From: Streptacidiphilus anmyonensis
Lineage (GTDB): Bacteria; Actinomycetota; Actinomycetes; Streptomycetales; Streptomycetaceae
DNA: 61,376 nucleotides
NCBI RefSeq assembly: GCF_000787855.1
Contig: NZ_BBPQ01000048.1
Span: 1-61,376, forward strand
Reading direction: 5' to 3'
Shown: one piece after another, positions 29,784 through 34,772 of the stretch
How positions within the stretch are numbered: position 1 is the first letter of the stretch
Layout: each line of letters begins with the position of its first letter
The notes under the pieces: model-generated
Database searches by the model: none
What the model saw: only the letters and a program-made list of their open reading frames with translations
What the model was told of the DNA's origin: nothing
Translations under genes and position numbers: made by a program

Positions 29784-32700
29784 ATGCTGCCGATCGTGGA
29801 GCGGATATCAGTCAGTCCCGTGTTCATCGGACGCGGATCCCAGATGGCCGCCCTCACCGACGCGCTGGAGCGTGCCGACGGGGGTCAGCCACAGGTCCTG
29901 CTCATCGGGGGAGAGGCAGGCGTCGGTAAGTCCCGCCTGCTGGAGGAGTTCCAGACCGCGGCCGAGGCACGGGGGTCCACGGCCGTGGTCGGGAACTGCC
30001 TCGAAGTGGGCGCGGAGGGCCTGCCCTACGCGCCCTTCGCCACGATCCTGCGGCGGCTGCACCGGGCTCTGGGGACCGAGCTCGACGCGGCCGCCGTCGG
30101 ACGTGAGAGCAGCCTGGCCCGGCTGCTGCCGGACATGGGCGAGGCACCGCCGGAGGCGCACGACGAGTACGCGCGCGCCCGCCTCTTCGAGCACACCGCC
30201 CAGCTCTTCGAGCAGTTGACGGCGGACCGCACGCTCGTGCTCGCGGTCGAGGACCTGCACTGGTCGGACCGCTCCACGCGCGAGCTGTTCGCCTACCTGA
30301 TCCGCACCCTGCACCGGGCACGGCTGGTGCTGGTCGCCACCTACCGCAGCGACGATCTGCACCGCCGCCATCCGGTCCGGCCCTACCTCGCCGAACTGGA
30401 GCGGCTGCGCACCGTCCAGCGGCTGGAGCTGCCACGGCTCGGCCGCCGCGAGGTGGGCCGCCAGCTGGCCGGCATCCTCAGCCCCTCCCGGCCCAGCCCC
30501 GAGCTGGTCGGGCAGATCTTCAAGCGCTCCGAGGGCAACCCGTTCTTCGTGGAGGAGCTCGCGGTCGCCTCCCAGCAGGGCTGTCGCACCGGCCTGACCG
30601 AGACGCTGCGCGACCTGCTGCTGGTGCGCATCGAGGCGCTGCCCGAGCCCACCCAGACGATGCTGCGCATCCTCGCCCAGGGCGGCTCCCGCGTCGAGCA
30701 CGGCCTGCTGGCCGCCGTCGTCGAGGCGACCGGCACCCTCGACGAGGACGAGCTGATCGACGCGCTGCGCACCGCGGTCGGCGCCAACATCATCCAGCAG
30801 ACCTCCGACGGCGACGGCTACCGGTTCCGGCACGCGCTGGTCCGCGAGGCCGTCTCCGACGACCTGATGCCGGGCGAGGTCACCCGCGCCAACCGCCGCT
30901 ACGCCATGGCCCTCGAGGCCGACGCGTCGCTGGTCTCCAGCGACCAGCGGGCCTCCCGCCTGGCCGGGTACTGGTACTGCGCCAACGACGCGGCGCGCGC
31001 CATGCCCGCCGTGCTGAACGCCGGTCGCGAGGCCCGCCGCCGCAACGCCTTCTCCGAGCAGCTGCGCATGCTGGACCGCGCCCTGGAGCTGTGGGAGGAC
31101 GTCCCGGCGGAGATCCGCGACTCGCTGCGCGACTACGACCACGCCGACGAGAGCTATCCGGCGTGCTCCTGCGAGGGCGAGTGCACCTGCGACGGGGACT
31201 GCATGGCGATCCAGCTCGTCGACCTGCTCGCGGAGGCCACCGTCGCCGCCCGCCTGAGCGGCGAGACCGACCTCGGCCTGCGTTACACCAAGCGCGCGCT
31301 GCGCCTGATCGACGAGAAGAAGACCCCGGAGCGCGCCGCCTGGTTCATCCTCGCCCGCGCCCGGGCCCTGCGCTACGACGTCGGCGCGACCAACCTCCCG
31401 GACATGGAGCACGCGCTCGCGCTCCTGGAGGGCCGCAAGCCGTCGGCGGTCCTGGCCGAACTGCTGCACCGGCAGGCGTGCGACGGGATGCTGGGCATCC
31501 CGCGCCGCGAGCACCTCGACATCGCCCGGCGGGCCGTCACGATCGCCGAGCAGGTCGGCGCCACCTCGCTGCAACTGCACGCGCAGCTGACGCTGGGCAT
31601 GCTGCACTGCGCGTTCGGGGAGCTGGACGAGGGCGCGGCGCTGCTCGCGCAGATCCGTGAACGGGCCGAGGCCAGCGGCGACGTGGACCTGATCAGCCGC
31701 GTCTACACCAACCTCTCCAGCCACCACGAACTGCAGGGCCGCTCCCGGGAGGCCGCGGAGGTGGCCCGCACGGGGCTGGCCATGATCCGCGCCAACGGCA
31801 TGACCGGGTACTCGGGCACGATCATCCTCGGCAACCTCGCCGAGCCGCTGATCTCGCTCGGCGAGCTCGACGAGGCGGAGCGGCTCCTCGCGGAGGAGCC
31901 GGACTGGGCCGGTCAGCGCGCCCACCGCGACTTCATGCACCGGCTCCGCGGCGAGATCGCGCTGCTGCGCGGCGACGTCGCGGGAGCGGCCGAGCACCTC
32001 GCCGAGAGCAGACGGGTCGGCCTGGTCTGGCAGCCGCAGAAGTACGTCCCGGCGGCGCTGCTGGCGATGCGGATCGCCGCCGCGCAGGGCCGGTACGCGG
32101 AGGCGCGGGCGGAGCTCGTCGCCGTCCTGGACGGCGACCGCCCCGAGGGCCACGACCGCGTCTGGTGGGCGCTGCTCGCCGCGGGCGCGGCCGTGGAGGC
32201 GGACGCCCGCTACCTGCCGGCGATGTCCGCCGGGCGCGCGGAGGTCCTCGCCCGCATCCGGAGCACGGCCGCCGGCCTCACCGCCGAACTCCCCCTCTAC
32301 GTCGGCTGGCGGGCCGTGCTCGACGCCGAACTCGCCCGCGCCGAGGGAACGGCGACGACCGCCGACTGGCGCCGGGCGGTCGACGCGCTCTCCGTGCTGG
32401 AATGCCCCTTCCCGCGCGGCCTCGCGCACTTCCGCCTCGCGGAGTCCCTCGCCGCGGAGGGCGACCGGGCGGCCGCGGCGCAGGCCGCGTCCCAGGCGGA
32501 GGAGCTCGCCCGCCGACAGGGCAACCAGCTCCTCCTCGACGACCTCCGCGCGCTGACCGGACGCGCCCGGCTGGCGCCGGTGACGACCCCGGACCCGGAG
32601 CCGGAGGACGGGGCCATCCACCTCACCCCGCGTGAACGCGACGTCCTGGGGCTGCTCGCGCTCGGGCGCACGAACCGCCAGATCGCGGAGGAGCTGTTCA

Positions 32701-32816
32701 TCTCGCCGAAGACGGCGAGCGTGCACGTCTCCAACATCCTGGCGAAGCTGGACGTGACGGGCCGAGGCGAGGCCGCGGCGGTGGCCCACCGGCTCCGGCT
32801 GATCCCGGCGGGGTAG
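29784..32816 (+). CDS. LAL-type transcriptional regulator (AAA ATPase plus LuxR HTH)
   Basis: 1010-aa large ATP-binding LuxR-family regulator. Walker A is GEAGVGKS (43-50) and Walker B-like LAVEDLHWSD is around 152-161. A long helical TPR-like middle precedes the C-terminal LuxR HTH (about 947-1005; LTPRERDVLGLLALG and RTNRQIAEELFISPKTAS). An unusual cysteine cluster CSCEGECTCDGDC spans residues 461-473. LAL regulators are typically activators with a signal-responsive ATPase. The target genes are unknown. Confidence 0.9.
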   Translation: MLPIVERISVSPVFIGRGSQMAALTDALERADGGQPQVLLIGGEAGVGKSRLLEEFQTAAEARGSTAVVGNCLEVGAEGLPYAPFATILRRLHRALGTELDAAAVGRESSLARLLPDMGEAPPEAHDEYARARLFEHTAQLFEQLTADRTLVLAVEDLHWSDRSTRELFAYLIRTLHRARLVLVATYRSDDLHRRHPVRPYLAELERLRTVQRLELPRLGRREVGRQLAGILSPSRPSPELVGQIFKRSEGNPFFVEELAVASQQGCRTGLTETLRDLLLVRIEALPEPTQTMLRILAQGGSRVEHGLLAAVVEATGTLDEDELIDALRTAVGANIIQQTSDGDGYRFRHALVREAVSDDLMPGEVTRANRRYAMALEADASLVSSDQRASRLAGYWYCANDAARAMPAVLNAGREARRRNAFSEQLRMLDRALELWEDVPAEIRDSLRDYDHADESYPACSCEGECTCDGDCMAIQLVDLLAEATVAARLSGETDLGLRYTKRALRLIDEKKTPERAAWFILARARALRYDVGATNLPDMEHALALLEGRKPSAVLAELLHRQACDGMLGIPRREHLDIARRAVTIAEQVGATSLQLHAQLTLGMLHCAFGELDEGAALLAQIRERAEASGDVDLISRVYTNLSSHHELQGRSREAAEVARTGLAMIRANGMTGYSGTIILGNLAEPLISLGELDEAERLLAEEPDWAGQRAHRDFMHRLRGEIALLRGDVAGAAEHLAESRRVGLVWQPQKYVPAALLAMRIAAAQGRYAEARAELVAVLDGDRPEGHDRVWWALLAAGAAVEADARYLPAMSAGRAEVLARIRSTAAGLTAELPLYVGWRAVLDAELARAEGTATTADWRRAVDALSVLECPFPRGLAHFRLAESLAAEGDRAAAAQAASQAEELARRQGNQLLLDDLRALTGRARLAPVTTPDPEPEDGAIHLTPRERDVLGLLALGRTNRQIAEELFISPKTASVHVSNILAKLDVTGRGEAAAVAHRLRLIPAG

Positions 32817-32909: not shown

Positions 32910-33317
32910 GTGAGCACTCCAGCGCCGAACGAACGCCGCGTCATCCCGCTGCGCCCGCAGCCCTCGTCGCCCGGCTCGGGTGGCGCGACCCCCGCGCCGA
33001 GGGAGCCACTGTGGCGCGACCTCGTCGGCGACGTCCTGCGGCGTGAGCGGCTCGCGCAGGAGCGCACGCTCAAGGACGTCGCGGAGGCGGCGCGGATCTC
33101 GATGCCGTACCTGTCGGAGCTGGAGCGCGGACGCAAGGAGGCGTCGTCCGAGGTGCTCGGAGCCGCCGCCAGGGCCCTCGGGCTCGGGCTCGCCGACCTG
33201 CTCTCGCTCGCCCAGGCGGAGTTGGCCCGGACCACCCGCAGCCGGGTGGTCCGGGGTCGCACGTCGTCCCGCACGTCGCTGGCGGCGCGGCACGACGGTC
33301 TCTGCCTCGCCGCCTGA
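32910..33317 (+). CDS. popR: XRE-family regulator, PopR-like, ending in Ala-Ala
   Basis: 135-aa Cro/CI-type DNA-binding protein. The HTH lies at about residues 40-95 (RTLKDVAEAARISMPYLSEL, with ERGRKEAS after it), as in ClgR and PopR. It ends CLAA; in S. lividans the terminal Ala-Ala of PopR is a degradation signal for ClpP proteases, and PopR activates clpP3-clpP4. The clpP3-clpP4 pair is encoded next door on the opposite strand, which supports the name. ClgR paralogues share the HTH, so the symbol is likely but not certain. Tandem repeats begin at its stop codon. Confidence 0.75.
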   Translation: MSTPAPNERRVIPLRPQPSSPGSGGATPAPREPLWRDLVGDVLRRERLAQERTLKDVAEAARISMPYLSELERGRKEASSEVLGAAARALGLGLADLLSLAQAELARTTRSRVVRGRTSSRTSLAARHDGLCLAA

Positions 33318-33399
33318 GACCCGCCGCCTGAGACCCGCCGCCTGAGCTCGCCGCCTGAGACCCGCCGCCTGAGCTCGCCGCCTGGGACCCGCCGCCTGA
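33309..33399 (+). repeat. Tandem 13/14-bp repeats at the end of popR
   Basis: Seven copies of a unit containing GCCGCCTGA or GCCGCCTGG start at 33309, 33323, 33337, 33350, 33364, 33377 and 33391. The spacings are 14, 14, 13, 14, 13 and 14. The first copy encodes the last two alanines and stop of the PopR-like protein. The array fills the gap between popR and clpP4. Confidence 0.9.
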
Positions 33400-33426: not shown

Positions 33427-34029
33427 TCAGACGAACGCGAGCCGCCGGCTGAGCACCTCGTCGGCGAGCCCGTAGGCGACGGCCTCCGCGGCGGTGAGCA
33501 CCTTGTCCCGGTCCATGTCCGCGCGCAGCGTGGCCACGTCGTGGTGCGTGTGCCGGGACAGCACCTCCTCCACCTGCGAGCGGACGCGGGCCATCTCCTT
33601 GGCCGCGAGGCTGAGGTCGGAGACCGTCCCCCGGCGGCCGTCGCTGGCGGGCTGGCCGAGCAGCACGCGCGCGTGCTGGAGCACGAACCGCCGCCCGGGA
33701 TCGCCGCCGGCCAGCAGCACCGCCGCTGTCGACGCCGCCTGCCCGACGCAGAACGTGGAGATCGGCGCCTGCACGAAGGTCATCGTGTCGTAGATCGCCA
33801 TCAGCGAAGTGAACGATCCACCCGGCGAGTTGAGGTAGATCGAGATCTCCTGCTCCGGGTTGGCCGACTCCAGGTGCAGCAGCTGCGCGATGACCACGTT
33901 GGCCACCCCGTCGTCGATGTCGGTGCCGAGGAAGATGATCCGCTCGTTGAGCAGCCGGCTGAAGACGTCGAAGGACCGCTCGCCCTGCGAGGTCCGCTCG
34001 ATGACGTAGGGAACCGTGTACGACCCCAT
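33427..34029 (-). CDS. clpP4: ClpP-family protein lacking the catalytic histidine (ClpP4-like)
   Basis: 200-aa ClpP-fold protein. Ser100 (GQAAS) and Asp175 (DRDKV) occupy the normal catalytic positions, but the position of the catalytic His, in a motif normally read HQP, is Gly125 (RVLLGQPAS). The usual N-terminal processing region is short. It probably cannot cleave peptides itself and may act as a structural or activating ring in a hetero-tetradecamer with ClpP3. It starts 1 bp after the clpP3 stop. The symbol follows the streptomycete clpP3-clpP4 arrangement. Confidence 0.9.
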
Positions 34030-34030
34030 G

Positions 34031-34669
34031 TCACAACCCCATCCGTCGGCGCGACGCGGCCGGGCGGATGTCGGCGAGCGACTCCACCACCCGGTCCACG
34101 ATCCCGTACTCCCTGGCCTGTTCGGCCGTGAACCAGCGGTCGCGGTCGCCGTCGCGCGCGATCGCCTCCTCGGTCTGCCCGGTGTGCTCGGCGGTGATCC
34201 GCTCGATGGCCTTCTTGGTGAACTCCAGGTTCTCGGCCTGGATCTCGATGTCCGCGGCGGTGCCGCCGATGCCCGCCGAGGGCTGGTGCATCATGATCCG
34301 CGCGTTCGGCAGAGCGAACCGCTTGCCGGGCGCGCCGACGGTCAGCAGGAACTGGCCCATGCTGGCGGCGAACCCCATCGCCAGCGTCGAGACGTCGTTG
34401 GGGATGAGCCGCATCGTGTCGTAGATGGCCAGGCCCGCGGTGACCGAACCGCCGGGGCTGTTGATGTACAGGCTGATGTCGGTGCGCGGGTCGTCCGCCG
34501 ACAGCAGCAGCAACTGCGCGCACACCCGGTTGGCCGACACGTCGTCGACCTGGGTGCCGAGCAGGACGATCCGCTGGTCGAGCAGCTGGGCCGCGAGGTG
34601 GTCGTCGAAGCGGCTGGGCGGGGTGTCGCCCTCCTCCGCGCGGGGAGGGAGCGGGGCGAGTGGAGTCAT
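34031..34669 (-). CDS. clpP3: ATP-dependent Clp protease proteolytic subunit ClpP3
   Basis: 212-aa serine protease subunit with an intact triad: Ser103 in GFAASMGQ, His128 in MMHQPS and Asp177 in GDRDRW. It works with an AAA+ unfoldase such as ClpX or ClpC. I chose ATG 34669 because GGGAG lies 8 bases upstream; an in-frame GTG at 34708 would add 13 residues. It is the first gene of the clpP3-clpP4 operon. A 9-bp dyad lies upstream between it and the divergent dehydrogenase gene. Confidence 0.93.
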
Positions 34670-34740
34670 CTGGTCTCCCGGTCGAGGCGGTGATGCCGTC
34701 GAATCCACTGTCGGCCCCGGACGGTCCCCGGTCGCGGTCT

Positions 34741-34772
34741 CTCTGCCCGCCGCAGATTCGCCACGGGCAGAG
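34741..34772. promoter_or_regulatory. Inverted repeat upstream of clpP3
   Basis: CTCTGCCCG (34741-34749) and CGGGCAGAG (34764-34772) form a perfect 9-bp dyad with a 14-bp centre, between divergent genes. It is a candidate regulator site, possibly for the PopR-like protein, although it does not obviously match a known ClgR or PopR motif. Confidence 0.4.

Follow-up and report, generated by a model that had tools for sequence, protein, structure and literature searches.

The nearest studied relatives of the accessory ClpP3P4 pair are the ClpP1P2 cores of Streptomyces and mycobacteria, the rings of which are reported to be homoheptameric (PMC9765437; PMC4416901). In S. hawaiiensis, a Ser-to-Ala mutant of ClpP2 was fully active while the ClpP1 triad was essential, and three ATPases were all found to depend on the ClpP2 pocket (PMC9765437). 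Similarly, docking has been described on ClpP2 only in M. tuberculosis ClpP1P2 (PMC4416901), and the LGF loop of ClpC1 has been located in the ClpP2 pocket (PMC11005422). In Synechococcus, each ClpP3/R ring is reported to consist of three ClpP3 subunits together with four of the inactive ClpR (PMC4673316), and Listeria ClpP1, with Asn for the triad Asp, is described as having a triad that is ordered only in the complex (cited in PMC9765437). In a survey from 2008, 21 of 121 Clp protease-like proteins were classed as putative inactive homologues (PMC2605481). Inactive ClpP paralogues such as ClpR, asymmetric heteromeric cores and dead ClpPs as such are already known.

In S. lividans, PopR degradation depends on ClpP1 and ClpP2, failure of ClpP1P2 leads PopR to turn on clpP3 clpP4, and at least one of the two clpP gene pairs is essential (PMC9765437). 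ClpP3P4 has been reported to be insensitive to ADEP, and the resistance subunit ClpP-ADEP to disrupt ClpP1 complexes and to pair with ClpP2 (PMC12607617).

The window, that is, the whole stretch of 61,376 nucleotides of Streptacidiphilus anmyonensis DNA that was analysed (contig NZ_BBPQ01000048.1), carries such a pair on its minus strand. The clpP4 gene (33427..34029) runs from an ATG at 34029 to a stop at 33427 and encodes 200 amino acids in a frame that is open along its full length; on the plus strand, no such gene is present at 33427-34029. A single base separates its start from the stop of clpP3 (34031..34708, minus strand), for which the start is uncertain and may be the GTG at 34708 or an internal ATG at 34669. 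Upstream of clpP3 lies a PopR box (34742..34771, minus strand) that matches the search pattern without mismatches, one base being open, and that differs by one mismatch, compared by eye, from the site printed in PMC9775585; in a control of 100 shuffles with three mismatches allowed, the box gave no matches. A popR-like activator gene (32910..33317, plus strand) is convergent with clpP4 and encodes an HTH protein ending in Ala-Ala, for which the best NCBIfam match is ClgR, at 86 bits against a cut-off of 170 and so below it. The tandem position behind clpP3 together with the upstream PopR box is the arrangement that marks the Streptomyces ClpP4 of the PopR regulon, and the window gene corresponds to that of the PopR-controlled clpP3 clpP4 operon in gene order, PopR box, convergent popR-like gene and complete ClpP3.

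The same setting recurs in 80 named loci from Streptomyces, Streptacidiphilus, Kitasatospora and Actinacidiphila, in which strain CBMA156 is counted twice. In 79 of them the strand opposite to clpP4 carries a PopR homologue, with a C terminus of AA in 69, VA in nine and IP in one, and in all 80 a PopR box (zero to five mismatches) is found no more than 500 bases upstream of the ClpP3 domain, compared with 8-12 mismatches in letter-shuffled controls. The S. anmyonensis genome holds four ClpPs; the ClpB_D2-small domain of Clp-ATPases is matched four times in it, once on the clpP1P2 contig, about 1.3 kb from these genes. Another genome of the genus (G010, contig C1) has at least two clpP3 clpP4 pairs, at 4573204 and 4914953, one on each strand with about 340 kb between them. 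Within the window, a 14-base unit, CGCCGCCTGAGACC, is repeated imperfectly in tandem from the popR stop onwards, in the interval that separates popR from clpP4 (33306-33399), and the unit is similar to the final codons and stop of popR. Beside popR, a large regulator of 1010 amino acids is encoded at 29784-32816, with C-terminal matches to LuxR-type HTH families and one N-terminal match to a kinase/cyclase fusion family, all of them below cut-off.

The window ClpP4 is a member of peptidase family S14 by profile, matching Pfam CLP_protease (PF00574) with an E value of 8.2e-68, and is predicted to adopt the ClpP fold. The best of five AlphaFold2 models reached a pLDDT of 84.4 (the remaining four 42.6-56.4), and in Foldseek this one confident model of five gave M. 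tuberculosis ClpP1P2 entries as top PDB matches, with a TM of 0.87 to ClpP2 (4u0g_A). The protein begins only a few residues away from the point at which mature E. coli ClpP starts, from which it appears that little or no self-processing may be needed. The nucleophile Ser100 (codon at 33730..33732, minus strand) and the triad Asp175 (33505..33507, minus strand) are kept, and the codon at which the catalytic His is expected (codon 125, 33655..33657, minus strand) is GGC, for Gly, within the motif RVLLGQP. At least two base changes are required to reach GGC from a His codon (CAY). These residues are as given in the first-pass annotation, as is the complete triad of ClpP3, in which Ser, His (in the motif MMHQP) and Asp are all present. 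Consequently, ClpP4 lacks the Ser-His-Asp triad of ClpP and, with one of the three residues lost, is a ClpP paralogue without a catalytic triad, of the type represented by ClpR.

The Gly is a family trait. A Streptomycetaceae set of 140 clpP4 loci, made up of the 80 named loci and 60 from 55 further genomes with some strains occurring in both parts, contained 121 distinct sequences, and Gly stands at position 125 in every locus and every distinct sequence, the window's included, so that chance can be set aside along with an assembly error. All four Gly codons are in use (GGC 83, GGG 42, GGA 8 and GGT 7, the window-locus copies L003 and L004 being left out of the codon counts). In a sample of the order, at least 41 of 84 Streptomycetaceae genomes had a ClpP4 match at an E value of 1e-100 or better, and all 41 proteins were read and carry Gly, which rules out a strain-specific loss of the His. 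A pattern search for the Gly motif gave off-target matches in three genomes, missed the true locus in another (G005) and was not used for any count. The alignment of streptomycete ClpP4 proteins that had been proposed as a check on lineage specificity is thereby supplied: the His is lost in every Streptomycetaceae ClpP4 read, and other families are broken in other ways.

Ser100 is likewise kept in all 140 loci. At position 175, 128 loci have Asp and 12 have Glu; a DNA tree shows eight switches between the two residues, and starred branches force three of these. A full ClpP3 domain adjoins ClpP4 in 139 of the 140 loci, and in each of the 139 its Ser, His and Asp are all kept. In the exceptional locus (L021, from G007), ClpP3 is split over two frames, which may be a frameshift or an assembly error, and the ClpP4 match beside it spans residues 49-198 only. 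Over 2489 of 2500 random pairs, the median dN/dS (Nei-Gojobori) was 0.145 in ClpP4 and 0.157 in ClpP3; the other 11 pairs were dropped as outside the range of synonymous differences, and partial saturation of synonymous sites is likely in these estimates. On these codon comparisons ClpP4 is evidently under purifying selection similar to that on ClpP3. Among 174 positions, 68 are invariant in Streptomycetaceae ClpP4, including Ser100 and Gly125, and the fixed Gly may have a structural role of its own.

Related subunits are broken differently in other actinomycete families. Loci were chosen among the matches listed for their resemblance to the ClpP4 of the window, and the numbers of broken types are accordingly no estimate of their share across actinomycetes. 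The 243 loci gave 479 ClpP domains, of which 423 were distinct, at least 150 amino acids long and placed in a FastTree tree; two ClpP3 fragments of L021, each under 150 amino acids, were left out. With midpoint rooting and the triad columns kept in, this tree splits into a ClpP1/ClpP3 side of 207 sequences and a ClpP2/ClpP4 side of 216. On the ClpP1/ClpP3 side, 206 of 207 sequences have Ser-His-Asp and all 207 have the His. Among 235 same-strand pairs within one locus, which include housekeeping pairs and repeated loci, the ClpP1/ClpP3-type partner was broken in none and the ClpP2/ClpP4-type partner in 182. Breakage of the ClpP4-type subunit takes the form of Ser to Ala, Glu, Trp or Gly, of Asp to Asn, His, Ser or Thr, and of His to Ala or Asp, alongside the Ser-Gly-Asp/Glu state of the Streptomycetaceae. 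Ala-His-Asp is found in family f3, in two Streptomycetaceae genomes and in one f6 and one f30 genome, and Ser-Ala-Glu in one f3 genome (G035); f21 has Glu-His-His/Asn, Ser-His-Asn and Ser-His-Ser, f28 has Trp-His-Thr/Asp and Ser-Asp-Asp, f38 has Gly-His-Asp, and f19 has Ser-His-His and Ser-His-Ser in one genome each. The triad is intact in the majority of f19 rows and also in part of those from f28, f6, f44 and f47. Two loci of the window's own family (L157 from G014 and L158 from G016) contain an accessory pair of the f3-like Ser-to-Ala type, which suggests transfer or differential loss. Two orphans were also seen: a ClpP3-type protein (L159, G033, 1244-1837) with Gly for the nucleophile Ser, the sole broken triad among the 207, in a genome with no ClpP4 relative among the matches listed, and a ClpP-like protein on a very long branch (L160, G023, 427-1896) in which all three triad residues are changed (Gly-Arg-Gly).

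A more careful IQ-TREE analysis was made of 107 rows, omitting L160, 108 of the 121 Gly-type sequences and nine alignment columns, made up of the three triad positions with their neighbours. On this tree there are five changes between intact and broken states, four of them forced by starred branches. A single clade of all broken ClpP4 types was rejected: it occurred in 0% of 200 bootstrap trees, from a bootstrap that had not fully settled, and the AU test gave p 2.6e-10, a test that presumes a group named before the tree, the group here being defined by triad state when a tree had already been seen. Parsimony by itself cannot separate loss from regain; separate losses are favoured because the residues that are broken differ among clades and because all 29 rows of the ClpP2/ClpP5 side are intact. 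The same subunit therefore appears, from these alignments and trees, to have been silenced several separate times in related bacteria.

The faces on which an ATPase would dock differ between the two subunits in the opposite direction. Three positions were scored, E. coli mature 60, 62 and 82, at which docking was knocked out in the S. hawaiiensis work. All 121 distinct ClpP4 sequences have Ser or Ala, Tyr, and Phe or Tyr at these positions, much like ClpP2. By sequence, the docking aromatic (E. coli Phe82) is present in 121 of 121 distinct ClpP4 and in none of 119 distinct ClpP3, which have Leu (118) or Met (one) instead. An N-terminal axial-loop motif was found in 118 of the 121 ClpP4 and in two of the 119 ClpP3, and among the housekeeping subunits in seven of seven ClpP2 and none of seven ClpP1; its absence from all seven ClpP1 means that it does not single out ClpP3 and follows the older ClpP1/ClpP2 division. 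ClpP4, and not ClpP3, thus looks like the docking ring as judged from these residues. Exceptions are known in other families: in 12 loci of f3 and f38 the ClpP4-type subunit has His at position 82, non-aromatic by the rule used, and several f19 partners keep Phe82 and have lost the Tyr at 62. When pocket loss, scored at position 82 alone, was set against triad loss on the careful tree (four of the 107 rows had no readable partner and were dropped), 51 rows combined pocket loss in the ClpP3-type with triad loss in the ClpP4-type subunit, 38 had neither, 13 pocket loss only and one triad loss only. The co-occurrence depends on few events, with two pocket-state changes on the tree, and an independent-pairs test of association between pocket loss and triad loss was not significant (p 1). 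Of the 64 rows with an aromatic-less partner, these 13 keep a full triad, so that docking specialisation does not force triad loss.

Taken with the described asymmetry of ClpP1P2, which it would extend, these features make it probable that ClpP3P4 is a split core, with the cutting done by ClpP3 and the ATPase received by ClpP4. In this proposal clpP4 encodes a conserved and presumably catalytically silent ClpP paralogue, produced with ClpP3 from behind a PopR box; a ClpP4 ring would stack on a ClpP3 ring and receive the Clp-ATPase on its own face, with LGF/IGF loops in the ClpP4 pocket and the axial loop at the pore, and the unfolded substrate would thread the ClpP4 pore to be cleaved solely at the Ser-His-Asp sites of ClpP3. 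We infer the assembly of ClpP3 with ClpP4, the one-sided docking and the inactivity of ClpP4 from sequence. If the asymmetry of ClpP1P2 was inherited by ClpP3P4, the active sites of ClpP4 would have been free to decay. The invariance of both Ser100 and Gly125 is more than pure site decay would demand and counts against the proposal. The stand-by role of ClpP3P4 fits with a core that has a single cutting ring. More broadly, the balance tips slightly towards a complementary decay in accessory cores, in which the ClpP3-type ring lost the docking aromatic and kept the triad in all pairs read, the ClpP4-type ring kept docking and repeatedly lost catalysis by way of different residues, and the silencing of one ring would be a selected and recurrent consequence of docking on one side. 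The first-pass annotation had suggested that one ring is structural: a non-catalytic ring or component paired with ClpP3 is indeed the most likely role of ClpP4 on present comparisons, but "structural" is too weak a term for a subunit in which both the docking aromatic and the axial-loop motif survive.

Among other explanations, ClpP3 and ClpP4 might share each heptamer, with ClpP4 diluting the active sites. ClpR of cyanobacteria and plastids, compared by description only, is like ClpP4 a non-catalytic ClpP paralogue with an active partner, and the mixed Synechococcus rings offer a model (PMC4673316). Such an arrangement is nevertheless unlikely, since the homoheptameric ClpP1P2 cores are the nearer relatives (PMC9765437; PMC4416901) and a ClpP3 devoid of the aromatic would be expected to spoil docking on a mixed ring; separate rings are more likely for ClpP3P4. 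It is quite improbable that ClpP4 has an altered activity, in which Ser100 would work with another base or with a His supplied by the complex. Ser100 is present in 140/140 loci, and Listeria monocytogenes ClpP1, a heteromeric partner with an imperfect triad like ClpP4, is a precedent, although there the Asp alone is altered and the site is aligned in the complex (cited in PMC9765437). Against this, Asp175 has repeatedly become Glu and the serine has been lost outright in other lineages, and the near-invariant His residues of ClpP4 (52, 119, 160 and 163) have no demonstrated place in the active site, two of them (119 and 160) having counterparts in full-triad subunits. The eight Asp-Glu changes and the vanished serines also speak against the earlier suggestion that the kept serine marks an altered and not a decayed site.

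ClpP4 could instead act under stress as a regulator, joining housekeeping ClpP1 or ClpP2 so as to dampen or redirect these subunits, in the manner of ClpP-ADEP, which breaks up ClpP1 complexes and pairs with ClpP2 (PMC12607617); the induction of clpP3 clpP4 by PopR upon ClpP1P2 failure would suit such a function (PMC9765437). This is very improbable, since a full ClpP3 domain adjoins ClpP4 in all of the 140 loci except L021, and since S. lividans needs one or the other of the two gene pairs to live, which implies that ClpP3P4 can work as a core (PMC9765437). Finally, the chance that the Gly reflects a sequencing error or a pseudogene is practically nil: an error concealing a His codon, named at the outset as an observation that would overturn the finding, is refuted by the Gly shared by all 121 distinct relatives and the dN/dS of 0.145, and is further opposed by the two or more base changes needed and by the open frame.

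The housekeeping ClpP2 of Streptomyces and mycobacteria is one of the known systems closest to ClpP4. ClpP2 lies on the same side of the tree as ClpP4, is among the closest folds to its model, and shares with it the axial-loop motif as well as the residues of the docking pattern (Ser or Ala, Tyr, aromatic). It differs from ClpP4 in that all 27 sequences of its FastTree clade, and 29 of 29 once two ClpP5-like rows are added, retain the complete triad, and in its long propeptide, with maturation reported at Val37 (PMC3258218), whereas ClpP4 begins almost at the mature end. One published experiment could count against the split core. E. coli BL21(DE3)/pLysS has a ClpP of its own. In that host, ClpX together with single subunits of what we take to be the S. 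cattleya accessory pair was reported to reduce the half-life of RelB (PMC4989188), and these single-subunit effects are read here as confounded by the host ClpP. In the parts of the literature searched, no mention was found of the catalytic loss in ClpP4, which the founding papers (Viala 2000; Viala 2002) may carry, and neither its recurrence in one subunit nor the complementary pattern was met with.

The absence of the docking aromatic from ClpP3 may partly explain the ADEP insensitivity of ClpP3P4. If ClpP4 is silent, beta-lactones and similar active-site agents could hit only the ClpP3 ring of the backup core. A single odd residue thus makes it possible to ask, by comparison across lineages, why a double-ring protease should need both of its rings active: the breakage of Ser, His or Asp according to lineage, with the partner spared in 235 of 235 pairs, predicts that one ring cuts and the other is a platform for the ATPase. 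The recurrent silencing of one subunit suggests such a division between a ring that cuts and a ring that receives the feeder motor and, if this is true, would yield natural proteases with one cutter and one docker.
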